From positions 1 through 64,000 of the forward strand of contig NZ_FOGH01000001.1 of the NCBI RefSeq assembly GCF_900111165.1: DNA of 64,000 nucleotides. The letters are read 5' to 3'. Below the pieces are notes generated by a model. The model saw nothing but the letters and a program-made list of their open reading frames with translations, was not told where the DNA came from and searched no databases. Origin of the DNA: Nitrosomonas sp. Nm51 (lineage in GTDB: Bacteria > Pseudomonadota > Gammaproteobacteria > Burkholderiales > Nitrosomonadaceae). The translations under genes were made by a program, and so were the position numbers. Below are positions 20,215-33,286 of the stretch, piece by piece. Numbering within the stretch: the first letter of the stretch is position 1; every line of letters begins with the position of its first letter.

Positions 20215-21030
20215 TTATCCATTGAAATTCAATTCATTCAATTCAGTAGTTTTGTAGAGCGGTATATTCTCAAAAAAACGGAATTTGAATTCTTTTGTTT
20301 GGCAAAATGAATTAGCTTTGATTGATATCGCTATTCGATGCCTCTTGTTGGGGCGGAACAGCCAGCTGCGCGAATTTACTGGGTGACCTGAATGCTTGTT
20401 CTTATATTCAAGTTGAATGTTGTCGTTGAATTTTTTTGACTTCGTTTCGCCTATTCGAAAACCGAAGTCCGCTAAATACATTGCAAATCCTAGACCACAA
20501 GCTTTAACGTAGGATTCTTTTAAGGTCCAGTAGTCAAAGAAACGGCTGCGTTGTCGGCCTACCGGCGTATTGATTAAATCTGAATACTCAGCTATGGAAA
20601 AAATATTTTTAGCGATTGATAGAAAATTACAGTTCCTGTTAATACTTTCGACATCGCAGCCAATTTCATTGTTTTGAGTGATAGCGCATAAGATTAAATC
20701 ATCTGAATGACTGATGTTGAATTGTAAAGGTAAAAGGGATTGAATAATTTTTGGTTTATTGTAGTTATCTTTTTTAAATTGCCAGCGGGATGGATGAATA
20801 TTTATGTAATGTGAGAGTATGTTTCGTATAAAAGAGCGTGTTATCAATTCGTTATGGCGTTTATTTGGAAAGACGTAACTTTGCTGCTTTAATATTTCTT
20901 GTTCGGAGAGCAAGCTTCTGTATTGTTTTAGCAGGCCGGTTTGGTGAATGGTATTTGGCTTTGTGAACCAAAGATGTATTTCATTGGTTTGCGATTGGAA
21001 CAATACTGGTTGATTAATACAGGAATTCAT
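20215..21030 (-). CDS. 4'-phosphopantetheinyl transferase, Sfp type
   Basis: A 271-residue Sfp/Gsp-type transferase that moves phosphopantetheine from CoA to the serine of carrier-protein domains. The two magnesium/CoA-binding motifs are IGCDVESINRN and FDYWTLKESYVKACGLGF, and the N-terminal FNISHSDDLILCA strand is present. It is the last gene of the minus-strand PKS operon, 11 bases after the outer-membrane protein gene. Its obvious client is the ACP domain (Ser 2069) of the 2145-residue PKS. It is larger than AcpS and of the secondary-metabolism type. Base composition looks more AT-rich than the housekeeping genes. Confidence 0.93.
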   Translation of the reverse strand: MNSCINQPVLFQSQTNEIHLWFTKPNTIHQTGLLKQYRSLLSEQEILKQQSYVFPNKRHNELITRSFIRNILSHYINIHPSRWQFKKDNYNKPKIIQSLLPLQFNISHSDDLILCAITQNNEIGCDVESINRNCNFLSIAKNIFSIAEYSDLINTPVGRQRSRFFDYWTLKESYVKACGLGFAMYLADFGFRIGETKSKKFNDNIQLEYKNKHSGHPVNSRSWLFRPNKRHRIAISIKANSFCQTKEFKFRFFENIPLYKTTELNELNFNG

Positions 21031-21041
21031 CGAGGATATAC

Positions 21042-22286
21042 TCAGAAGAAACGAATCAGGCGAATTTGGAAGTAATCATCTTTGCGCATTCCTGTTAAAA
21101 TATCCGTTGATTGACCTTTGGTGAAATCATTTGGCGCTACATTTAAAAAAAGTGTTGTTTCTGCCTCGATTTTCCATTTCTCATCCAAGCGCCGGCTTGC
21201 ATTTAGTTTAAAGATAGAAGCCTGTGTTTCCAAATCGATGGTATTGCCGACGATTAATTGTGTATCGGATACATCATTTAAGTTCAGGCGAACACCAAAA
21301 TACACATCATTATCAAAAGGTGTTGGCGGCGCCGTTATATCCCGGCCATCGTATAAATATTCAAGCAGAATGCCCATGTCGGCGTTGCTGTTCAGGATGC
21401 CGTAAAAAGAGTATTCAAAACCAGCCACTACGGCAGCGAACCGGCCCGAGCCTTGGCCGCTACGTGTCATTGCTTCAAGTTTCCATAACCAATTATCAAT
21501 GGCGCCTTGTATGTCAATACTGGTTTGATGAATCAATTCGTAAAGCGGTGTCAAAGTGCTGGTGCTCTGGTTGGGCAATATGCCTTCGTCAAAAAATCTT
21601 AGGCTTGGTTCGCGGCCAATTCCCCAAAAATGTGCAATTCCGATATCCCATGGGCCAATGGTATGATCCCAGCGCCCTGCAAAACTCGGGTGCCAGCGAT
21701 CGATACCGTCAAAAATCGGATCATGGGTATCAACCGGAAATTCAAATCGTAATCTGCCGCTTCGTGCGGGAAAGGTGCGGTCGCGGAAATAGGGAAGGTA
21801 GAACAAACTGAAATTACCGAAATCGCTTAAATAATTAAAATTTACCATCGGTTGACCCAGCTTCGCTTCTCCATATAAATTTTCGACCAGATCAATTTGA
21901 TTTATTACATCAACCAGATGGCGGGATTCTGTGGTGCCCCAGAAAGTTCTGCTTACTCCCAGCTTTAAATCCCAACTATTTGCGACATGAAACCAATTCA
22001 GCTCTCGAATATCAAAATGCGTTCTGTTTTTATCTTGACTGTCTACCCGTCCGAATGGAACAAATGTTATACGATTACTGCCAGTATGCCATTCATGCCG
22101 GAATTCCGGTTGCAGCATCACGGAAGGATTTAAAGTATCGTCATTTTGTACTGCGTAGGAAGGAGATTGTGTGTAAAGCCTGAAATCCAGCGATCCATGT
22201 CCGGAAATTTCCAAGGCGAATACCGTGTTCGATAGAAATGCGGCTAATGCAGCAATGTAGCAATTAACCGCATAACGAAAAATCAT
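21042..22286 (-). CDS. Outer-membrane beta-barrel protein of the PKS/MMPL operon
   Basis: A 414-residue protein with a signal peptide (MIFRYAVNCYIAALAAFLSN, cleavage near VFA). It is then a string of alternating amphipathic beta strands rich in aromatic residues (HGSLDFRLYTQSP, WDLKLGVSRTFWGTTESRHL, FSLFYLPYFRDRTFPARSG) and ends in a C-terminal phenylalanine (QIRLIRFF), the usual outer-membrane insertion signal. It resembles DUF1302/alginate-export-like porins that accompany MMPL exporters. Its place 4 bases after the LolA-like gene and downstream of the MMPL gene suggests that it is the outer-membrane receiver or channel for the lipid product. Exact family not certain. Confidence 0.78.
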   Translation of the reverse strand: MIFRYAVNCYIAALAAFLSNTVFALEISGHGSLDFRLYTQSPSYAVQNDDTLNPSVMLQPEFRHEWHTGSNRITFVPFGRVDSQDKNRTHFDIRELNWFHVANSWDLKLGVSRTFWGTTESRHLVDVINQIDLVENLYGEAKLGQPMVNFNYLSDFGNFSLFYLPYFRDRTFPARSGRLRFEFPVDTHDPIFDGIDRWHPSFAGRWDHTIGPWDIGIAHFWGIGREPSLRFFDEGILPNQSTSTLTPLYELIHQTSIDIQGAIDNWLWKLEAMTRSGQGSGRFAAVVAGFEYSFYGILNSNADMGILLEYLYDGRDITAPPTPFDNDVYFGVRLNLNDVSDTQLIVGNTIDLETQASIFKLNASRRLDEKWKIEAETTLFLNVAPNDFTKGQSTDILTGMRKDDYFQIRLIRFF

Positions 22287-22290
22287 ATTA

Positions 22291-23073
22291 TTACCTTAAG
22301 TTTCTCAGCGCATTGACGGCAAAGTCACGATCATTGTAACCGTTTCTGAATTTGTAGTTTTTACGCAGCAATTCAGTGCTTTTTCCATTTTGATGATTTG
22401 TCATGACCAATTTCCCGGCTTTCCAGAAACGGTCTAAATGCAGCGTGTAGTCGCTGAAAGCAAGTGTTTTTAATAACTCGTTTTTACGGTCATAAAAATC
22501 TATTCTACGCGGTTGGTAAATGGTTTTATCGATCCACTCCACTTGGCGTGTATAACCGGAATATTCGTATGCAGGCGTATTTTCTACTACAAAAGTATCA
22601 TATTCGCCAAGCTTCTCGTCTCTCAGGTACTTATAGGTATACTTTTCAAGTTCCCAGGAAGCAATATCTTCGAAAGCAAACTCGCTGCCAACAAATGGAC
22701 CAGATTTATTGACGGTTGATATACGTTTAACCCGTTTTAATGAGGGTAAATAAAGCCATTGATCATCGGGCTCAAGACCATGTGAATGCGTCAGGACCGC
22801 TGTGCCCCTGACATCAGCGGGGCTTTGAAAAACGCCGATTTCTTTATCGCCATCGCCCTCAACTTCTAGTGTTTTTACCAGAAAAATACGGGTGCTTTCT
22901 TCCCCCTGAGCGCTTCGCAGGGTCATGAATGCTTCATGCATGCTGTCGATAAAGCCATTGTCCCGCCGATTGACCTCCGCTTGTATGGAGTAACCCCGTT
23001 CTTCGGGAGTTTGAGCCAGCCCGTTAATACTGACCAACGAAAAGAGTGAAATGAATAGGATTATGTTTCTCAT
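22291..23073 (-). CDS. LolA-like outer membrane lipoprotein-sorting protein
   Basis: A 260-residue periplasmic protein with a signal peptide (ending NGLAQ). It matches the 'outer membrane lipoprotein-sorting protein' (LolA-like, PF17131-type) family: DNGFIDSMHEAFMTLRSAQG, IFLVKTLEVEGDGDKEIGVF, DDQWLYLPSLKRVKRIS, GSEFAFEDI and QVEWIDKTIYQPRRIDFYDR. The fold is an open beta half-barrel that can carry a lipid. Such proteins are usually encoded beside MMPL/RND exporters, as here (41 bases downstream of one). Inferred role: shuttling the PKS-derived lipid across the periplasm to the outer-membrane protein encoded next. Confidence 0.88.
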   Translation of the reverse strand: MRNIILFISLFSLVSINGLAQTPEERGYSIQAEVNRRDNGFIDSMHEAFMTLRSAQGEESTRIFLVKTLEVEGDGDKEIGVFQSPADVRGTAVLTHSHGLEPDDQWLYLPSLKRVKRISTVNKSGPFVGSEFAFEDIASWELEKYTYKYLRDEKLGEYDTFVVENTPAYEYSGYTRQVEWIDKTIYQPRRIDFYDRKNELLKTLAFSDYTLHLDRFWKAGKLVMTNHQNGKSTELLRKNYKFRNGYNDRDFAVNALRNLR

Positions 23074-23114
23074 GAAAATTCTCCTTGAGCTTGATAGAAT
23101 CTTAAAATGTTATG

Positions 23115-25454
23115 CTACTTAGGTAATGTTGCATTTTGCATATGTAGAATTTTCTTGTTTTTTGAACAGGTTTTTAATTTTTCAATAAACAAGAGTATGG
23201 GCGGAAGTAACAGGAAATCGGCTAGAAGACCGAGTGCAAAAATTATTGCAGTTAGCATTCCCATTTCCTGGTTGATTTTAAAGCTGGATAAAGCTAATAC
23301 TAAAAATCCGAGAATTAGCACAACCGAAGTGACCCACAAGGCTTTGCCAACTGTCGTAAAGGTGTAGCGGATCGCATCATCAGGTGATAGCTGCATATGC
23401 TTGCGCGCATGCTGGTATCGGCTCAAAAAATGCACAGTATCATCAACCAGGATGCCGAGAGTCATGGCGATAACAACCGATGAAGCCATTCCAACCTGAC
23501 CTACCAGTAATGCCCACATGCCGAAAGCCATCCCCGCCGGAATCAGGTTCGGTATCAAGCTAAGCGACCCGATTATTGCTGATCTCAATACAAACATCAT
23601 CAGGATGGAAATTAAGCCAATTGCCAGTAGCACGCCACCGATCATACTGACGATGTTGCGTTGCCCGATGTGTGCAAATAACAGCGTGGTGCCGGTTCCT
23701 TCACTATGGCTTAATTCGGGTGCGAATGTTTTAAGCCATTCCTGTGCTCTTTTTTCCAGATCAATTACCTGTTGACTTGAAATACTATGCAACGATGCAG
23801 TCACGCGGGTTGCCGATTTGCCAACATCGATACGGTCATTCAAATCAAGGCCATAGGGCAAAGACATTTCAAAGACCAGCAAGTATTGTGCTGCCATCTC
23901 AGCGGTTTCCGGCAGCCTGTACCATGACGGATCCCCGCCATGCATGTTCTGATTTAGACGTTTAAGAATATCCGTTATAGCGAAGACATGAATTGTTTCC
24001 GGCTGCTGACGGTACCATTCTACAAATGCATCTACTTTTCTGAGATATTCGGGATTGTTAATCCCACTGTCTGTCATGGTTTTCAGGGAATAATCGATGC
24101 GGTAGATACCAGTCAGGTGCTCTGTCGTATAATCAGTGTCCTGCCGAAACTGGACAGACTCGTCGAAATATTTAACATACTCGTCATCCAGAGTGTTCAA
24201 CGGAATGCAGGCAATCAGCGCAACAACCAGCACTGTTGATAGCGCGAAGTAAGTGCGCCCATGTTTGATAATGTTGTTGGCCAGGTTTTTCCAGATAGGA
24301 TTGCTTTTTAGCGATAATTTATTTTTTGGCTCGGGCAGCAACGTGACAAGCGCAGGTAGAAAGCTGATGGCAAGAATGAAGGTAACGCCAACACCCATTG
24401 CTGTAATATTACCCAAATCACGAAAAGGGGGTGATTCACTGAAATTCATGGAAAGGAAACCGATGCCTGTGGAAAAATTTGTAAAGAAAATAGCTTTAAA
24501 GTTTCCTTTTAAACTATCCGACATTGATTGAATTTTCTCAATGCCATGCGCCAGTGAATGATAATAACTCGTTAAAATATGGACAGTATTTGCAACAGCC
24601 AATGTTAACAGGATAGTCGGCGCCGGAATACTGGAAGGTGAAAAAGCAATATTCATCCACCCTGCCAGCCCAACTGCGGCAACTATTGATAGCGTTATCA
24701 TTATCGTGGCCGCGAGCACACCCCACACGGATTTAACAAGCAATCCCAGGACAATAATAATGACGGTTAGCATTGCTGGCGTCAGCGTTTTCATATCCAG
24801 TTCTGATGATTCTGCAAATGCCGTATCCATCATAACTGATCCGGTTATGTGGATATCCATTTCTGGATGAGCGGATTTAAGTTGCTTGACTTGCTGGCGG
24901 ATAAAATGGGTAACTTCCCTGGTTTCAGAATCCTGATGAAAGCCTGGCCGTTGAATAACTACATTAAAGCCCATTACACGCGCATCGGGAGATACGAGTC
25001 TATTAACAAGCAGCGGTTCATTCAATGCATAATCTTTAATTTGAGAAATTTTTTCGCTGGATAACTGCTCTGCATTTTTTACCAGATCTTCTACGATAAG
25101 GTCATCGCCTATCGCATAGCTATGCTGAAAATTAGTGATTGAATCAACGCGTGTTGAATACGGTGTTTGCCAAAGATCATGTGTCAGTTTCTCAGCAATG
25201 GCCAAGTTTTGCGGTGAAAAAATATTGTTGTCAGCTGGTGTGAGAACCAGTAAGACGTTGTCATCTTTTGTATATGTTTTTTGTAAACTTTCATAAGCAA
25301 TCAGCTGCGGGTTTTCTTCGCTAAAAAACATACGGTAATCACTTTTGAAGTGAAGATTCTTTATGCCGTAACCTGCGATGCTTACAAGCAGCAAGCTGCT
25401 GACAATTATTAACCAGCGGAAACGAAGTATGAAATGCGCATAAGTTTGTATCAT
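23115..25454 (-). CDS. MMPL/RND-family lipid exporter
   Basis: A 779-residue inner-membrane protein with the RND plan for a single-chain exporter: helix 1 (about residues 10-30), a large periplasmic loop (FSEENPQLIAYESLQKTYTK), a six-helix block (PAMLTVIIIVLGLLVKSVWG to FLPALVTLLPEP), a second helix and loop, and a second six-helix block (SMIGGVLLAIGLISILMMFV to FLLLPPILLFIEKL). MMPL motifs TLGILVDDTVHFLSRYQHAR and TVGKALWVTSVVLILGFLVL are visible. Relatives move hopanoids, mycobacterial polyketide lipids and aryl polyenes. It lies 12 bases after the oxoamine synthase gene, so the likely cargo is the operon's own product. Confidence 0.92.
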   Translation of the reverse strand: MIQTYAHFILRFRWLIIVSSLLLVSIAGYGIKNLHFKSDYRMFFSEENPQLIAYESLQKTYTKDDNVLLVLTPADNNIFSPQNLAIAEKLTHDLWQTPYSTRVDSITNFQHSYAIGDDLIVEDLVKNAEQLSSEKISQIKDYALNEPLLVNRLVSPDARVMGFNVVIQRPGFHQDSETREVTHFIRQQVKQLKSAHPEMDIHITGSVMMDTAFAESSELDMKTLTPAMLTVIIIVLGLLVKSVWGVLAATIMITLSIVAAVGLAGWMNIAFSPSSIPAPTILLTLAVANTVHILTSYYHSLAHGIEKIQSMSDSLKGNFKAIFFTNFSTGIGFLSMNFSESPPFRDLGNITAMGVGVTFILAISFLPALVTLLPEPKNKLSLKSNPIWKNLANNIIKHGRTYFALSTVLVVALIACIPLNTLDDEYVKYFDESVQFRQDTDYTTEHLTGIYRIDYSLKTMTDSGINNPEYLRKVDAFVEWYRQQPETIHVFAITDILKRLNQNMHGGDPSWYRLPETAEMAAQYLLVFEMSLPYGLDLNDRIDVGKSATRVTASLHSISSQQVIDLEKRAQEWLKTFAPELSHSEGTGTTLLFAHIGQRNIVSMIGGVLLAIGLISILMMFVLRSAIIGSLSLIPNLIPAGMAFGMWALLVGQVGMASSVVIAMTLGILVDDTVHFLSRYQHARKHMQLSPDDAIRYTFTTVGKALWVTSVVLILGFLVLALSSFKINQEMGMLTAIIFALGLLADFLLLPPILLFIEKLKTCSKNKKILHMQNATLPK

Positions 25455-25466
25455 TCTGAATACCTC

Positions 25467-26834
25467 TTAGCTCAGCGTGTTTAGGGGTGAATTGTCTGTG
25501 TTCGATAGTGACTTTATTTCTTTTGCGAGCGTATCCACTGTATAGTTCACTTCATCTTCAGCGAGGTTGCTTGTTATAAAGAAACGCAGTCTTGCTTCGG
25601 ATTCCGGTACTGCTGGATATAGAATTGGATGAACGCATATACCGGCATCAAGCAGTTTTTGGCCTAGCTTTAAACAGGCTATTGAATTTCCCGTAATGAT
25701 GGGAATCACGCCGGTTCCCTCAGCCAGGCCGGTGTCCAGTCCCTTTTTCTTGGCCCGTTCTATAAAAAGTTTGGCGCGGTCTCGAAGGCGTGCAGCCCGT
25801 TCCGGTTCTTGCTGCAGAATTCTGGCTGCCTGCAATGCCGCGGCAGTGTTAGCTGGAGAAATTCCCACACTAAACAAGATTGCTCCAGCAGAGTTATACT
25901 TAATATTTTCAATTAACGCATTTGATCCGCAGATATAACCGCCACAGCTGGCAAATGCCTTGCTGAGCGTTCCCATCCAGATATCGACTTCATTCCCGTT
26001 AATCCCAAAATGATCGTGAGAACCGAGCCCCCGCGGTCCTATAACGCCGGCAGCATGAGCCTCGTCTACCATGAGAATACTGTGATTTTTTTTCTTGATT
26101 TTAATAAATTGAGGCAGATCGGCGATATCGCCGTCCATACTGTAGACACCTTCAATGACTATAAGTACGCGCTCATAGTCTTGGCGGTTTTCCCTGAGTA
26201 TTTGGTCAAGTGCTTCCCAGTTATTGTGTGGAAAAACCATTCTGCGTGCGCCAGAGAGAATACAGCCTGTAATAATGCTGTTGTGTGCCAGGCTGTCGTG
26301 CAACACGAGATCTCTGGGCCCGAAGAGATGTCCTATTACTGACACATTGGTCGAATAGCCACTGACAAGCGCAATCGCGCTTTCAGTGTCATGAATTTTT
26401 GCCAGCTCTTTTTCCAGCTCTCTATGTAAGGGTATTTCACCCGAAACGATCCTGCTGGCTGATACGGATGTTCCAAACTGATCAATCGCATTCCTGGCGG
26501 CGTTATTGACATCGGGGTGTCCTGATAAACCTAAATAGTTATAGCCTGAATAGTTGATATACTTTTTTCCATTAAAGTTAGTGACATGATCACTTACTCC
26601 ATGGTGAACAGAAAAGTAAGGATTATCCAGTTTCAGTGTTTGAAATGTCTTTTTTTGTTCGCTGAGCATAGAATAACCGGGAAATTTTTCAAACTGATAA
26701 AATTCTTCCGGAATTGCATTCTTGCCCGTGGCGTTTAGAAGTGTATTTTGCTGTTCGGCAGCGCTGCTTGCCAACAATTGGCGAAGAAGCTGGCGCTTGC
26801 TGGCACTGCTCATGCTGTCAACATCTTTATGCAT
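25467..26834 (-). CDS. Alpha-oxoamine synthase (AONS/SPT-like), PLP-dependent
   Basis: A 455-residue fold-type I PLP enzyme of the 8-amino-7-oxononanoate synthase/serine palmitoyltransferase group, which condenses an amino acid with an acyl thioester, losing CO2, to an alpha-amino ketone. Visible residues: NYSGYNYLGLSGHPDVNNAA, SGSIxxH-type RIVSGEIPLHRELE, the PLP-pocket DEAHAAGVIG (Asp 257), and the Schiff-base lysine 292 in GTLSKAFASCGGY. It has about 65 extra N-terminal residues compared with BioF. It is 14 bases downstream of a PKS that lacks a thioesterase, so it most likely releases the polyketide from the ACP. No other biotin gene is nearby, so BioF is unlikely. Confidence 0.9.
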   Translation of the reverse strand: MHKDVDSMSSASKRQLLRQLLASSAAEQQNTLLNATGKNAIPEEFYQFEKFPGYSMLSEQKKTFQTLKLDNPYFSVHHGVSDHVTNFNGKKYINYSGYNYLGLSGHPDVNNAARNAIDQFGTSVSASRIVSGEIPLHRELEKELAKIHDTESAIALVSGYSTNVSVIGHLFGPRDLVLHDSLAHNSIITGCILSGARRMVFPHNNWEALDQILRENRQDYERVLIVIEGVYSMDGDIADLPQFIKIKKKNHSILMVDEAHAAGVIGPRGLGSHDHFGINGNEVDIWMGTLSKAFASCGGYICGSNALIENIKYNSAGAILFSVGISPANTAAALQAARILQQEPERAARLRDRAKLFIERAKKKGLDTGLAEGTGVIPIITGNSIACLKLGQKLLDAGICVHPILYPAVPESEARLRFFITSNLAEDEVNYTVDTLAKEIKSLSNTDNSPLNTLS

Positions 26835-26848
26835 TTTGATTACTCCAT

Positions 26849-29800
26849 TTATGACATCAATTGTTTTAATAAAACATCAACATCTTCATCAGTGAGCTGA
26901 GCAACGACTGAATCTTTATTTAAGCCGGTTTCTTCTGGTTCAGATAAGCGAGAAATATTTGATTTGTCAAAAATCATTTTTGCTGTTTGACTTAGATTAT
27001 TACCACGCAGCAGTTCTAACGCTGAAATTCTTACGCCAAATGTCTGGTAAATCGTGGTTTGCAAATCGGCAGCCATTAAAGAATCAACGCCTAACTGGGT
27101 TAAGGAATGCTGCAACTCAATTTTGTCGGCGGGGATGCACAGTGTTTTTGCGATTTGTTCGCACAAAGCAGCCGACATTGCGCCTAATTGTTTATCAGCC
27201 GGCAATTGACTGATTTCCTGGCAAATACTAGTCATTTGATGATCTGGGTCACTAGAATCGGATAGCATTAATTTTGAATACCGTGGAGAATTTCCACCCA
27301 TTGGTTCAAACGCTTGCCAACGCGGCCAGTTCGTATCCATCAGACCGTATTGAGGTAAATTCATATTGGACATGTGCATCCATGAATCCAGCGCTTGCGT
27401 CGAGGTAAGTGGGGAAATCCCCATATTTTCAAGATGTTTTTTAACCTCATCGTTATCAACCGCCATACCGGCTGCGATAGCGCCCCAGTTAATACTGGTA
27501 GCAGGCAACCCCCTTGCATTGCGATACCAGGCCAGCGTGTCTAAAAATGTATTAGCCGCTGAGTAATTTGCCTGACGGCTATTACCAATCAAGCCAGATA
27601 CCGAAGAAAATAATACAAAGAAATCCAGCGGCATCTTTTGGGTTATTTGATGAAGATTCCAGGCGCCAACAGCTTTGGCTTGCATTACCGTTGAAAGCCG
27701 GCACGGATTGAGCTCATTGATTGGCGCATCATCCAGTACCGCAGCTGTATGTAAAATTCCTTTGAGAGCAGGAAATTCCTGTTTTATTTTTTCAATTAAT
27801 TGATTTATCTGAGCGTTATCGCAAATATCAGCGGCAACTTCCATTACTTTAACACCCTGTTTTCTCAATAAGGCTACCGTATCAATCGCAGTTTTGCTGG
27901 CAGCACCGCGCCTTCCGAGTAAAACCAGATATTTTGCACCATGTTTTGCTAGCCACCTGGCGCTTTCCAGGCCAAAACCGCCAAAACCGCCGGTAATTAA
28001 ATAAGTGGCTTTGGGATCGAATTTATTTGTATTACTGTTTATCAGTGAAATTGACGCTTTATCTTTAAGCGATACCACAGGTGTAAATAAATTATCGGAA
28101 AATTGCTTGCTGAATACTGTTTTGAAGCTTTTCTCCGGAGAGACAGGGTAAGCCGTGCCGGGTTCTGTTGAGTACTGATTTACAAACTGCGCCAGTTCTG
28201 AAAGCAGTTTTGTAAACAAACCGGGTGAAGAAAGTGCAATGTTCAATCCGTCTGGACTGTAAAACATAACATTCGTTTTTTTGGATAGTGCCGGTTGCTG
28301 TGCATTGGTTTGATTGATTATGATTTCGCGGGTACCGGGGGTTTTGAGAATTTTCAAAAGTCCCGGTTGTTCATCGCTGCCGGCGTGAATCCACGCACCC
28401 ATGTTACAGGTGCCAACCCTGTTCATTAATATTTTTCCAAAACCGGGTTTGCTCGCGTTTAAAACAGTAATACTTTTGAATGATTCTAATAGTTTGATTT
28501 GTTGAGAATTATCACTGTAATAAATCAAATCGAGGTTTAACCATTTGCAAATGTTCGTTAGTGCGGAGGCTGGTATGCCGGTTTGCGCATCAACTATGAC
28601 AGTCTCACCTTCTGTAAGGCTTGTTAGATATCTAAGTAAATAGTATGCAGGCAGCATTGATGTTGCCAGTGCAACCAGTTCTTCAGAAGTAATTTTTTTA
28701 AATTCAGCGGTACTGAAGACCTGCTTGACCGGTATAGTGCAATGAGAAGCGGGAGTATGATTTGCGGCAATGAGGACGCGATCATTTTGGTTTAATTGTG
28801 ATATGTTCTTGCCTTTACTGCAGATATTCCCAGCTGCGAAAAAGCCGCTTGATGAATTTTCACGATTTTGATCAGCTATGGCGCTTGCGAGACTGAAATG
28901 GCTGACTGCAATTTCCACTTCATTTGCTTTGGGCCTGACACGGGTAATGGGACTAAAGTCTGACTCATTACCCGGATCAACCTGGAATGCCTCTACCTGT
29001 GTTCCATTGAGCGGAACGGCAGGATTCAGAAAATAATTATCCGGTATTTCAATACGTTCCAAACGATGAACAAACCGTTGTAAATTCCTGAGTGCAACAT
29101 CGTCTTCAGCGCTGTTAACTAACAGCTCAGTCTTTAGTTGTTCTATGGCAGCATAACTGTGTTGGGTATCAAGATCGATTGTTGTGCATTTAAAATCCGG
29201 GAATTCGTTATGTGCAACTCTTATCAAGCCTATCAGAGAAGACTGTGCAAGATGTGTAACCGTATCTGTTTCTATTACTGGATTGACCCCTTGTGTTACG
29301 AAATATAGCCTGGGTACGTTTGATGTAAAAATGTCACTTAAACACTGTAATACTTGCAAGGCCGCAGACGTCTGCCCGATTCCGGTCGGGTCATTATCTT
29401 TTTCATGTGGATTTAAACCCCATAAATAGGCGACGCCAACACAACTCTTGTCTTTTACATAGTTAAGGATTGCTTTCAAGTGATGAACCTGATCACAATC
29501 AAGTGGCCGAATAACCGGATCGTTTTCTTGAAAAATATCGGACAATTTAATTTGAAAAACAGTATTGCCCGGTTCAGTCTCAAGCTGTGTGCACAACGCA
29601 TTGCATGTAAGGCTGTTATCGGAGAAAACAACCCAGCACCCCGCATTCGTCTCTCTTGATTCCAGGTTTTGGGGGTACCATTTCCAGGCATGTGCGTAAC
29701 GGGATAATTGATCGTGAGGATTTTCTTTTTCGTTTTGTAAAGCCTTGCAGAATAATCCTTCTATTTTGGCGCATATACTGCCATTTTCATCATACAATGC

Positions 29801-32800
29801 CAGAGAGCCGATTATGCCGTTGCTATCTCTTTGTAAAAGCCTGCCTTGGCACCAGAGCATTTTTCCAGGAGATTTGTGGAACGTAATTTCGCTGATTGAA
29901 ACGGGCATAAAGAATTGTTCATCATCTTCAACCAAGGCGATGAGCGACTGAAAACAACCATCTAATAAACAAGGATGCAAATAATAGTTAGACAAATCGT
30001 CTAGCAACTGGTCATGTAACTGGATTTGTGCAAAGACTTTGTTTTTGCCGCGTCTTAGCTGGCGAATGGTACGAAAATGCGGGCCATAGTCTAGTCCCCT
30101 GTGTCTTAGGTTTTGATAAAGATAATCTATATCTACATTTTCATCGCAATCCCTGAAATTTTTTTCTAACTGAGCTGTTGTTTGCTTGACAACGCTTGTC
30201 TTTGCTTTTTTGATTATTCCTGATGCATGCAGCTGCCAATTCATCAGCTCGTCAGGTTTTTTGCTGAAGAATGAATATTCTCCTGTATGCTCGTCAAGAT
30301 TAATATGAATAGTTGGGTCATTAATAGACTCAAGTATAAGCGCATGATGAAAATGAATATTTTCAATTAAACAAGCTGGCTCTGCAGTTTCCGCTAATTC
30401 ATTATGCGCAGCAATGCCTGCTTCAATATAGGCAGCGCCGGGCATAACCACTAAACCATCAACCTTGTGGTCTTTCAAATATGGAATAAATTGATGGTTA
30501 AGCGTGCCTTGCCAGCTTGGCCGGGGATCGCGTAAACGCTGATCAAGAATTGGATGCGCAGGAACATTAGTGCGTTTTGAAACTGAATCATCCATTTCAT
30601 GCCAGTAGATTTCTCTTTGCCATGGGTACGTCGGAAGTTTGATGTATTGTGCATTTTCCGCATACAAGCGCCGCCAGTTCAAGTTACATCCGGCAGTATA
30701 TAAGCCTGCCATACCCAGTTTAAAGGTTAGCTGCTCTGGTGCGCCGCGTTTCAAAGTAGCGGCTGTTTGTGCAGGAATATTTCTGGCGCTGCAGCATTCC
30801 TTAATTGCGGTTGATAATACCGGGTGAGGTCCGACTTCCAGAAATACGCGATGCCCGTCTTTTAGTAAGCTTTCCATGGCCTTGGCAAAATAAACCGGTT
30901 TGCGGATGTTGTTACACCAGTATTCAGCGTCGCAGGCAATATCATCAACCAAATCTCCCGTAACGGTCGAATATAACGGAATGCTTGGTAATGAAGGACT
31001 TAACTGTGCCAGTTTTTCACGCACTTCTGGTTTGAGCGCATCCATATAGTGGCTGTGATAGGCAACTTCAACTTTCAAAAATCTATTGAATTCATTGATA
31101 GCAGTTAAGTATGTTGAAATGGCTTCAAGGCTATTGCTGTCGCCGGCAAGCGTGATGGATGTGGGCCCGTTAATAGCGGCAATGGAAACTTTGTTTTCTG
31201 TTAAGTCGAGCAGTTCCTGGCATTGTTCATAATTGATGCCGACTGCAAGCATTCGCCCTTGTCCGGCTGCTTTATTTTGAATCTGGCTACGGTAATAACT
31301 TACTTGAATCGCTTCTTCGAGAGTCAGTACTCCGGACACATAAGCTGCGGTTACTTCTCCGACGCTGTGACCCACAATTGCAGCTGGCTCAACGCCATAT
31401 GCGCGTAACAGTGCGGCCAGTCCAACTTGAATAACAAAATTTGCAGGCTGAGCGATTGTCGTTTTGGTGATGCGCGATTGCTCTTCATCAGCAAGTATTT
31501 CGTTGCGGATAGACCAGCCGGCTAATTGAAAAAATAAAGTATCACAGGTATCAACAGCTTCCCTAAATACAGATTCACTTGCATAAAGTTCGCGACCCAT
31601 AGCCCACCACTGCGGTCCCATACCGGTGAAAACAAAAACCGGATTTTTAATTTCGTTGTCCAGGGTTTTTCCTTGCGCCAGCCATTCTCCTGCACCTTGA
31701 GAAACAAATTGTTCAAGCTGAGTGCGGATTTCTGTAAACGTACTGCCGACTGCGGCTAACCGGTGATTATGGTGACTGCGGCGGCAGGATGCCGAGTAAC
31801 AAAGGTCATCAAGTGATATAGAACCGGTCTCTGAAAAACGATCAAGCCAGGACTGTGCAAGTGCCGAAAGCCCGCTATCACTTCTTGCCGATAAAGGCAA
31901 AATATAAGGCGCCTTGTTTTGCTCCGGTTTGATGGTTTTTATATTGGGATTTATGGGTGCATTTTCCAGAATAACATGTGCGTTTGTTCCCCCATAACCG
32001 AAGGAATTGACACCCGCAAAAAGCTGATCTGCGTTTGGTGCCAGCGACTCAATTTTACGTGGCAAACGAAGCCCAAGTGCTTTGAAAGGGATATTAGGAT
32101 TGGGGTTTTTTAAGTTGGCTTGAGGCGGAACCTGGCGGTGAGAAAGACACAAGGCTGCTTTAATCATACCCGCTACGCCAGCGGCTGCTTCGGTATGGCC
32201 TATGGTTGATTTTACCGATCCTATGAAACATGCATTTTTCTGCGAACGTCCTTGACCAATGACTGCGCCCAATGCTTGTGCTTCAAGCGGATCGCCAACC
32301 GGCGTTCCCGTACCATGGGCCTCAAAGTAGCAGATTTTTTTAGGATCTAATTGATATTTATTGCATACTTCCCGAATCAATGCAGACTGTGCTTCAGGAT
32401 TGGGAACGGTAATACCGTTAGTGCGGCCATCCTGATTAACACCGGTACCCCTGATCAATGCGTAAATAGAATCGCCATCTTTTAATGCTTCAGATAAAGA
32501 TTTCAATACCACAACTCCGGCACCCTCACCACGACCATAACCATCCGCGTTTTCGTCAAAACTTTTACTGCGGCCATCGCGAGCCAGAAACCCGCCTTTA
32601 CACATTGCAACCGGGTATTCAGGGCGGAACATAATATTTACTCCGCCTACTAAGGCAAGGTTGCATTCACCTTGCCATATGGACTGACAGGCTAGATGCG
32701 TAGCAACAAGCGATGAAGAACACGCGGTATCAAGGCTCATACTGGGACCATGAAGGTCGAGCATATAAGAGATGCGATTGGATAGAATTGTCATGGTAGA

Positions 32801-33286
32801 TCCAATTGCTGTATGCGTCGTAATAAAATCGCGATTCGTGCTCCCCATTTGCGTTAGTTTATGATCCAATGTAAAAGCGCCTATAAAAACGCCCGTATTG
32901 GAGCCTGCAATTGATTCTATGGGAATACCGGCATCTTCCAACGCTTCCCAGCTTGTTTCTAACAATAATCGCTGCTGTGGATCCATGCATTCGGCTTCGC
33001 GCGGTGTAATGCCAAAAAATAATGCGTCAAATTCGCTAATTTTTTGCTTAAGAAAACCGCCTGCGTGTGTATATATTTTTCCAGGTTTGCTTGAATCTGG
33101 ATCGTAAAATCGTTTCAGATTCCAGCGATCAGGCGGTATATCTGAAATTGCATCTTTTCCGCCGAGTAATAATTGCCAAAAACTCTCGGGATCATTCGCA
33201 TCCCCTGCGTAACGACACCCGATTCCAATAATTGCAAGTGGTTCTGTACTACTGTTGCGGCTTAGGGTATTTGCAGGTTTTTGCAT
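26849..33286 (-). CDS. Type I polyketide synthase, KS-AT-DH-ER(degenerate)-KR-ACP
   Basis: A 2145-residue single-module synthase. KS is at about 15-445 (Cys 189 in LDTACSSS, His 324 in EAHGTGTPVGDP, His 364 in GHTEAAAG). AT is at 548-860 (GHSVGE with Ser 641; specificity motif YHSH at 743-746). DH is at 908-1200 (His 940 in HKVDGLVVMP, Asp 1109 in HPCLLDG). A structural region follows at 1200-1430, then an ER-shaped region at 1430-1710 whose NADPH motif is replaced by TGIPASAL. KR is at 1757-1945 (ITGGFGGFG, LDD 1851-1853 suggesting B-type, Tyr 1908). ACP is at 2035-2110 (Ser 2069 in GVDSLMA). No thioesterase is present; the C-terminus DEDVDVLLKQLMS may be a docking tail. First gene of a six-gene operon. 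Iterative action with unsaturated or hydroxylated product is inferred. Confidence 0.95.
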   Translation of the reverse strand: MQKPANTLSRNSSTEPLAIIGIGCRYAGDANDPESFWQLLLGGKDAISDIPPDRWNLKRFYDPDSSKPGKIYTHAGGFLKQKISEFDALFFGITPREAECMDPQQRLLLETSWEALEDAGIPIESIAGSNTGVFIGAFTLDHKLTQMGSTNRDFITTHTAIGSTMTILSNRISYMLDLHGPSMSLDTACSSSLVATHLACQSIWQGECNLALVGGVNIMFRPEYPVAMCKGGFLARDGRSKSFDENADGYGRGEGAGVVVLKSLSEALKDGDSIYALIRGTGVNQDGRTNGITVPNPEAQSALIREVCNKYQLDPKKICYFEAHGTGTPVGDPLEAQALGAVIGQGRSQKNACFIGSVKSTIGHTEAAAGVAGMIKAALCLSHRQVPPQANLKNPNPNIPFKALGLRLPRKIESLAPNADQLFAGVNSFGYGGTNAHVILENAPINPNIKTIKPEQNKAPYILPLSARSDSGLSALAQSWLDRFSETGSISLDDLCYSASCRRSHHNHRLAAVGSTFTEIRTQLEQFVSQGAGEWLAQGKTLDNEIKNPVFVFTGMGPQWWAMGRELYASESVFREAVDTCDTLFFQLAGWSIRNEILADEEQSRITKTTIAQPANFVIQVGLAALLRAYGVEPAAIVGHSVGEVTAAYVSGVLTLEEAIQVSYYRSQIQNKAAGQGRMLAVGINYEQCQELLDLTENKVSIAAINGPTSITLAGDSNSLEAISTYLTAINEFNRFLKVEVAYHSHYMDALKPEVREKLAQLSPSLPSIPLYSTVTGDLVDDIACDAEYWCNNIRKPVYFAKAMESLLKDGHRVFLEVGPHPVLSTAIKECCSARNIPAQTAATLKRGAPEQLTFKLGMAGLYTAGCNLNWRRLYAENAQYIKLPTYPWQREIYWHEMDDSVSKRTNVPAHPILDQRLRDPRPSWQGTLNHQFIPYLKDHKVDGLVVMPGAAYIEAGIAAHNELAETAEPACLIENIHFHHALILESINDPTIHINLDEHTGEYSFFSKKPDELMNWQLHASGIIKKAKTSVVKQTTAQLEKNFRDCDENVDIDYLYQNLRHRGLDYGPHFRTIRQLRRGKNKVFAQIQLHDQLLDDLSNYYLHPCLLDGCFQSLIALVEDDEQFFMPVSISEITFHKSPGKMLWCQGRLLQRDSNGIIGSLALYDENGSICAKIEGLFCKALQNEKENPHDQLSRYAHAWKWYPQNLESRETNAGCWVVFSDNSLTCNALCTQLETEPGNTVFQIKLSDIFQENDPVIRPLDCDQVHHLKAILNYVKDKSCVGVAYLWGLNPHEKDNDPTGIGQTSAALQVLQCLSDIFTSNVPRLYFVTQGVNPVIETDTVTHLAQSSLIGLIRVAHNEFPDFKCTTIDLDTQHSYAAIEQLKTELLVNSAEDDVALRNLQRFVHRLERIEIPDNYFLNPAVPLNGTQVEAFQVDPGNESDFSPITRVRPKANEVEIAVSHFSLASAIADQNRENSSSGFFAAGNICSKGKNISQLNQNDRVLIAANHTPASHCTIPVKQVFSTAEFKKITSEELVALATSMLPAYYLLRYLTSLTEGETVIVDAQTGIPASALTNICKWLNLDLIYYSDNSQQIKLLESFKSITVLNASKPGFGKILMNRVGTCNMGAWIHAGSDEQPGLLKILKTPGTREIIINQTNAQQPALSKKTNVMFYSPDGLNIALSSPGLFTKLLSELAQFVNQYSTEPGTAYPVSPEKSFKTVFSKQFSDNLFTPVVSLKDKASISLINSNTNKFDPKATYLITGGFGGFGLESARWLAKHGAKYLVLLGRRGAASKTAIDTVALLRKQGVKVMEVAADICDNAQINQLIEKIKQEFPALKGILHTAAVLDDAPINELNPCRLSTVMQAKAVGAWNLHQITQKMPLDFFVLFSSVSGLIGNSRQANYSAANTFLDTLAWYRNARGLPATSINWGAIAAGMAVDNDEVKKHLENMGISPLTSTQALDSWMHMSNMNLPQYGLMDTNWPRWQAFEPMGGNSPRYSKLMLSDSSDPDHQMTSICQEISQLPADKQLGAMSAALCEQIAKTLCIPADKIELQHSLTQLGVDSLMAADLQTTIYQTFGVRISALELLRGNNLSQTAKMIFDKSNISRLSEPEETGLNKDSVVAQLTDEDVDVLLKQLMS

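Follow-up and report, generated by a model that had tools for sequence, protein, structure and literature searches.

A polyketide synthase and alpha-oxoamine synthase operon of Nitrosomonas with a candidate export route for a sphingoid-like lipid

In Pseudomonas fluorescens MYb115 the enzymes PfSgaA and PfSgaB make C24-C28 sphinganines, PfSgaB having serine palmitoyltransferase (SPT) activity with a near-exclusive preference for serine over alanine and glycine, and 6101 homologous clusters have been counted (PMC12134224, in the portions covered here). The canonical sphingolipid cluster spt-acpR-aasR of the rhodobacterial type, which converts serine and an acyl thioester to 3-oxo-sphinganine, is reported for Nitrosomonas eutropha (PMC9386255; its genes appear also in PMC11324152, each covered in part), and WcbR/RkpA polyketide synthases (PKSs) are described in capsule clusters, those of Nitrosomonas included (PMC3908369, in the parts covered). 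We report an operon from Nitrosomonas sp. Nm51, found in a window of 64,000 nucleotides (the whole stretch of DNA that was analysed), in which a PKS and an alpha-oxoamine synthase (AOS) are joined by an MMPL exporter, a LolA-like protein, a probable outer-membrane protein (OMP) and a phosphopantetheinyl transferase (PPTase). We put the chance at somewhat better than even that this one operon builds a sphingoid-like lipid and delivers it to the outer membrane.

The six genes are consecutive open reading frames (ORFs) on the minus strand, with intergenic gaps of 14, 12, 41, 4 and 11 bases. They encode a mono-modular type I PKS (26849-33286, 2145 residues, Pfam and NCBIfam matches), an AOS that is the proposed release enzyme (25467-26834, 455 residues, a pyridoxal phosphate enzyme with its motifs kept), an MMPL/RND (HAE3-like) inner-membrane exporter (23115-25454, 779 residues, PF03176), a LolA-like periplasmic carrier (22291-23073, 260 residues, PF17131), a probable outer-membrane beta-barrel (21042-22286, 414 residues, assigned from sequence signs, without a Pfam family) and a Sfp/HetI-type PPTase (20215-21030, 271 residues, ACPS superfamily). 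An initial annotation had described six minus-strand genes with gaps of 4-41 bases and had given them these identities; the ORF coordinates bear out the first statement, and the Pfam and NCBIfam matches, with the sequence signs of the OMP, agree with the second. It is the spacing alone that supports an operon, and on it we take the six genes to be co-transcribed; promoter-like matches (31 against 30.2 in shuffles) and terminator-like matches (14 against 13.5) are at chance level.

As in PfSgaA/PfSgaB(/SgaC), a mono-modular PKS (iterative in Pseudomonas) is directly followed by an AOS, and the SPT activity of PfSgaB has its counterpart in the SPT-like catalytic motifs of the window AOS, the two being likened by description and not by PfSga sequence. 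The window operon differs in having no short-chain dehydrogenase/reductase (SDR), in a decayed enoylreductase (ER), and in the addition of the MMPL-LolA-OMP set and the PPTase; the full reductive loop that the saturated PfSga product implies is absent from the window PKS, its ER motif being lost, and where the window has a dedicated exporter, the portions of PMC12134224 covered describe none. The spt-acpR-aasR cluster, as far as its sources were covered, shares an AOS-family enzyme with the window but uses a stand-alone acyl carrier protein (ACP) and fatty acids in place of a PKS. The initial annotation knew of no pathway with this exact set of genes, and the six-gene set was indeed not described among the matches listed in literature word searches (titles and abstract openings of open-licence papers, which is weak evidence of absence). 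The pair of PKS and AOS is, on the other hand, a known sphinganine route (PfSgaAB) and common near capsule genes, so that what is new here is the PKS variant and its coupling to export genes.

The window PKS has the domain order KS-AT-DH-(psiKR/linker)-psiER-KR-ACP, where KS, AT, DH and KR are ketosynthase, acyltransferase, dehydratase and ketoreductase. The KS, AT, DH, KR and ACP motifs are all intact, the AT motif VAYHS being of the malonyl kind, and Pfam found neither an ER domain nor a thioesterase or methyltransferase. The decayed ER region (residues about 1426-1750; 28037-29011, minus strand) has lost its NADPH motif and is the least conserved domain: among the Nitrosomonas PKS orthologues its identity is 26-44%, the lowest of the domains compared, against 75-77% for the KS. 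The motif is gone from all nine Nitrosomonas PKSs aligned over their length and from the partial L035 (in this alignment the ACP stretch of the L134 PKS is unreadable), as it is from three of three PKSs of family f115, to which genome G668 belongs, and from L059, a locus of another genome of the same order; it is present in L062, L067 and L145. In five close pairs dN/dS is 0.15-0.27 for the ER and 0.02-0.04 for the KS, a range that leaves out two further pairs of which some or most domains have a saturated dS (L132-L136, with 0.16 for the ER and 0.02 for the KS, and window-L130, with no KS or ER value). Dehydration without enoyl reduction leads us to expect an unsaturated product, unless a reductase acts in trans; the amino-ketone polyketide lipid of the initial annotation fits the genes, with the correction that it should be unsaturated. 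L059 includes a zinc alcohol dehydrogenase gene, whose product is a possible trans-acting ER.

For the AOS the best NCBIfam scores are with the BioF, Kbl and SPT models, all under cut-off. Its catalytic core aligns with structures of SPT, KBL and other AOSs, and it retains the His, Asp, Lys and Arg motifs, which we take to be the catalytic residues. A housekeeping SPT role for this enzyme was ruled out by a canonical SPT elsewhere in the genome. PKS-AOS fusions, found in Planktothrix and Streptomyces (L062, L065) and at L210, support a direct hand-over from ACP to AOS. At L210 (3726-17667) the fusion, of 2612 residues, has as neighbours a MacB-type permease, a TolC-like OEP protein and an ABC ATPase that includes a cNMP domain. 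At L065 (5749-13158), on a Streptomyces plasmid, a KS-AT-ACP-AOS fusion and an MMPL gene are divergently placed, which parallels in an actinobacterium the pairing of PKS/AOS with MMPL.

The exporter has PF03176 domains and multiple hydrophobic segments, and scores far under the HpnN and BstA cut-offs. It shares the MMPL/RND family with the hopanoid exporter HpnN, the sterol exporter BstA and mycobacterial MmpL, of which the characterised members carry lipid cargo. The LolA-like protein matches PF17131 (E 6.5e-57), has a signal-peptide-like start and is homologous to the solved structure 3bk5. No Pfam or NCBIfam family was found for the 414-residue protein, nor a homologue in the PDB, where the OMP profile gave one chance match (E 0.42). 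Its start is hydrophobic and signal-peptide-like, its residue alternation is 0.336, a value that 1 of 500 shuffles reached (their mean is 0.197), and a Phe at the C-terminus is invariant in 14 aligned sequences, the window included, as in outer-membrane barrels; with these features it is probably an outer-membrane beta-barrel. The same three genes also occur by themselves. LolA-like relatives (E up to 1e-30) are present in 120 of 369 genomes of the class, and in 20 loci opened among the best LolA matches (L149-L168; LolA-like proteins 53-59% identical to that of the window) MMPL lies beside the LolA-like gene in 18 and MMPL plus OMP in 14, in the order of the operon where complete; six Nitrosomonas genomes (L139-L144) carry a complete stand-alone trio. 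At L229 and L230, where there is no AOS, the neighbours of the divergent MMPL and LolA-like genes are an AMP-ligase-like gene and two ORFs, one of 993 and one of about 613 residues; these loci are perhaps another lipid system with the same carrier type.

The PPTase belongs to the ACPS superfamily, with HetI closest though under cut-off. A PPTase gene follows the OMP gene in nine of the ten Nitrosomonas loci that reach past it, and its type is exchanged between loci, being HetI/Sfp-like in the window and L129 and EntD-like in seven. The host genome (3.24 Mb in 131 contigs) has one PKS-sized ketosynthase ORF and two PPTases, of which the one outside the operon is AcpS-sized.

Our distribution counts all include the window's own genome, and the order, class and phylum samples overlap. 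A search of 399 genomes of the order gave AOS relatives in 26 (E up to 1e-90), and at 1e-100 they occur in 10 of 340 genomes of the class and 19 of 398 of the phylum. Within Nitrosomonas (E up to 1e-60) 15 of 85 genomes have one: 11 are window-type (70-100% identical) and four, at 50-52%, are capsule-type genes beside Wza-KpsMTE genes in separate genomes (G107, G403, G419, G420). A scan of named genomes yielded just two loci; a contig of Nitrosomonas sp. slu-bin5 carries an AOS 77% identical to that of the window. The five genes PKS-AOS-MMPL-LolA-OMP lie on a single strand in ten of the eleven window-type genomes, with a flavoenzyme gene between PKS and AOS in three; G425 (L138), where parts of MMPL, LolA, OMP and PPTase lie on a contig of 3.9 kb and no AOS matched, stands outside the eleven. 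Of the 24 genomes of family f115 six carry the AOS, and in each of these the five genes keep their order to the extent of the contigs, the set being complete at L207 and L248. The gene order, sought in other genomes as the initial annotation had suggested, is conserved: it recurs in ten further Nitrosomonas genomes (one rearranged) and, for five genes, in a distant family, and this goes beyond chance; an assembly of genes peculiar to the window was ruled out by the same recurrence. At L059 (3107-16054) the order is PKS-AOS-alcohol dehydrogenase-ABC ATPase-FtsX/MacB permease-LolA_like-unknown, with ABC parts where the others have MMPL; the 452-residue protein there may be a barrel by position only, its alternation not being significant (73 of 500 shuffles as high).

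Some Nitrosomonas loci carry further genes, for an amine-oxidase-family protein between PKS and AOS (L037, L134, L137) and for an FMO-like protein upstream of the PKS (L037, L133, L134, L135, L136, L137); these flavoenzymes are possible tailoring enzymes.

In a careful KS tree the PKSs of ten Nitrosomonas loci, three f115 loci and L059 form one group (97/91) apart from the capsule PKSs, with L059 sister to f115 (100/96); L201 and L065 were dropped for long branches, L129/L035 is absent because the end of its contig lacks a KS, and three of the six f115 loci are included. A LolA-like gene is present at every examined locus of this clade (11 Nitrosomonas genomes, six of f115, and L059), MMPL beside it in the 11 Nitrosomonas and six f115 loci, and the barrel gene where contigs reach. 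A clade of the MMPL-linked KS rows without L059 was rejected (p-AU 0.0245). As L059, with LolA and an ABC pump, falls inside the group, it is the LolA linkage that marks the group and the pump that differs. In a quick tree of MMPL proteins the pumps of the Nitrosomonas operons lie nearer to the stand-alone pumps than to those of f115 (SH-aLRT 89).

We read the operon as a variant form of the PKS/AOS sphingoid pathway in which the ER has decayed and LolA-type export is built in. Its biosynthetic class is fairly secure from homology and precedent, while unsaturation, the use of serine, export and the outer-membrane destination are what we infer for the product. In the mechanism that we propose, the PPTase would load the ACP arm of the PKS, which, to judge from its domain states, would iterate with malonyl units, reducing the keto group and dehydrating without enoyl reduction, so that the ACP would end up holding a chain in the form of an enoyl or poly-enoyl thioester. 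The AOS, by analogy with PfSgaB, would join this thioester to an amino acid, of which L-serine is the likeliest, in a decarboxylating condensation that would free the chain without a thioesterase as a 2-amino-3-ketone with a 4,5-double bond. The conserved gene order and the analogy of the families suggest the remaining steps: the MMPL protein would lift the product out of the inner membrane, the LolA-like protein would ferry it across the periplasm, and the barrel would insert it into, or pass it through, the outer membrane.

A number of observations weigh against the making and export of such a lipid by one operon. The dN/dS of the ER only slightly exceeds the 0.12-0.17 of the psiKR/linker stretch and stays well under 1, so that the region evolves about like a structural part with some constraint remaining. 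DEAHAA in the six Nitrosomonas AOS rows aligned stands against DEAHS in four capsule-type rows, L207 and L059, and the choice of amino acid may differ with it. None of the six operon genes encodes an SDR of the 3-ketosphinganine-reductase type, and the closest match in the host genome to the SDR of a Pseudomonas plasmid (L063) is 33% identical. Position, kept in nine of ten loci, fits the PPTase as the operon's activator, as the initial annotation had it, but its type is exchanged and its gene lies in two frames in four of nine loci (L129, L133, L134, L136) and also in L138, either through damage to the gene or through sequencing error; L037 has none after the OMP gene, and none was seen in the six f115 loci as far as their contigs reach. 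The window-type AOS is limited to 11 of 85 Nitrosomonas genomes, and at L135 the PKS gene lies on the opposite strand. The MMPL tree neither shows nor rejects a single origin of the coupling (p-AU 0.42, with L231, L225, L229 and L230 dropped from the clade test), and the AOS tree, from which L059 is absent, its AOS having been read separately, leaves the joint grouping of MMPL-linked AOSs unsupported (34). Neither PKS nor AOS was found in the 20 loci opened among the best LolA matches, all of other genera, or in 16 further, mostly weaker ones, and the usual cargo of the trio may be something else than a PKS/AOS product. The host genome also has a canonical SPT above its NCBIfam cut-off (C68:109511-110686, L261), which makes it probable that the organism can draw on a further sphingolipid route of the standard kind. 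The sphingoid route of the initial annotation must be corrected on this point, the canonical SPT route being also in print for the genus (PMC9386255, in the part covered); its central claim, of one operon making and exporting such a lipid, still fits the gene set and its conservation, but has to be set against the trio's wide occurrence as a separate cassette.

The product might instead be a conjugated polyene amino-ketone, an outer-membrane protectant like the aryl polyene pigments and not a sphingolipid, and this we think unlikely, though with an appreciable chance. The intact DH and KR with a decayed ER are what such a chain would need, some operons add FMO-like and amine-oxidase/NAD_binding_8-type (perhaps CrtI-like) flavoenzymes, and genes of the MMPL and LolA-like kinds are also part of aryl polyene clusters. 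A reductase acting in trans, for which the L059 dehydrogenase is a candidate, could however reduce the chain, and aryl polyene clusters use discrete type II KS/CLF, KR and DH genes where the window has a single type I PKS, a difference by which an aryl polyene cluster as such was ruled out.

Slightly less probable again is that the trio forms a cassette of its own for efflux or lipid recycling, unrelated to the PKS genes and merely co-transcribed with them. The absence of PKS and AOS from the 36 LolA loci described above speaks for it, as does the finding that both adjacent regulators tested at trio loci (that of the stand-alone L151 among them) are of the TetR family. Against this, the order is shared by two distant families, and L059 keeps the LolA-like gene with a different pump.

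Loci of the rkpA/rkpG and wcbR/wcbT kind (e.g. L067, Sinorhizobium meliloti) also have a PKS followed by an AOS, and they have been proposed to make the lipid that anchors or primes a surface polysaccharide. Were the PKS-AOS pair of the window to do the same, the MMPL trio would have another job; we regard this as improbable. The window AOS is 44-54% identical to the capsule-type AOSs compared, and besides the literature on Nitrosomonas capsule clusters (PMC3908369, in the parts covered), 48 of the 76 PKS or AOS loci fetched besides the window have at least one capsule-panel gene nearby, 17 having the MMPL trio and 11 neither. The set is not random, being of score-chosen loci with six plasmid loci picked from 26 plasmid matches, and it includes both L035 and L129, taken as one contig since they agree in length (52683) and in AOS row. 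The capsule label is generous, given for any capsule-panel gene that scores above 100 bits in the stretch that was fetched, even where this is just an SDR; L210 bears it, but on inspection has the ABC-MacB-TolC set. Pfam found no capsule-type gene among the six operon genes and four flanking genes, and the window KS lies in another clade than those of the capsule PKSs, which adjoin capsule genes; a plain capsule-anchor locus was ruled out on these two grounds. Two capsule-type PKSs run against Pfam have about 2500 residues and an intact ER, and one (L145) also a methyltransferase, all of which the window PKS lacks, and the four Nitrosomonas genomes with capsule-type AOSs are distinct from the eleven of the window type. 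Least probable of all is that the AOS takes alanine or glycine to form a short diffusible amino-ketone signal and not a membrane lipid, as the membership of the CAI-1 synthase in the AOS family and the DEAHAA substitution might suggest, for the reducing PKS, LolA-like carrier and probable barrel suggest a hydrophobic product and the nearest characterised analogue is nearly serine-exclusive (PMC12134224, portions covered).

The operon is flanked by a divergent PutA gene on one side and, downstream on the same strand, by the gene of a TIGR03790 protein; no tRNA was found. When the flanking PutA, nadC and TIGR03790 genes were sought in 22 Nitrosomonas loci, nothing usable matched (a single PutA match was at 27%), so that the insertion site is not comparable across Nitrosomonas.

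Returning to the reading of the operon as maker and exporter of a sphingoid-like lipid, we would extend it to the wider clade only tentatively, and with well under even confidence: an iterative PKS with a dead ER may make a pre-desaturated (4-ene or polyene) sphingoid base, which the AOS releases and a LolA-like relay, with either MMPL or a Lol/MacB-type ABC transporter to drive it, places in the outer membrane, and the loci may together be a family of self-contained systems, analogous to the Lol pathway but for a polyketide in place of lipoproteins. The operon holds both a likely producer and a likely means of delivery, which allows producer and cargo to be tested jointly, and the widespread stand-alone MMPL-LolA-OMP cassettes gain a concrete class of cargo to test. 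Ammonia oxidisers would gain a second possible source of sphingoids beside the canonical SPT and, if true, the reading links the recently discovered bacterial synthesis of sphingosine-like lipids to a dedicated delivery route.

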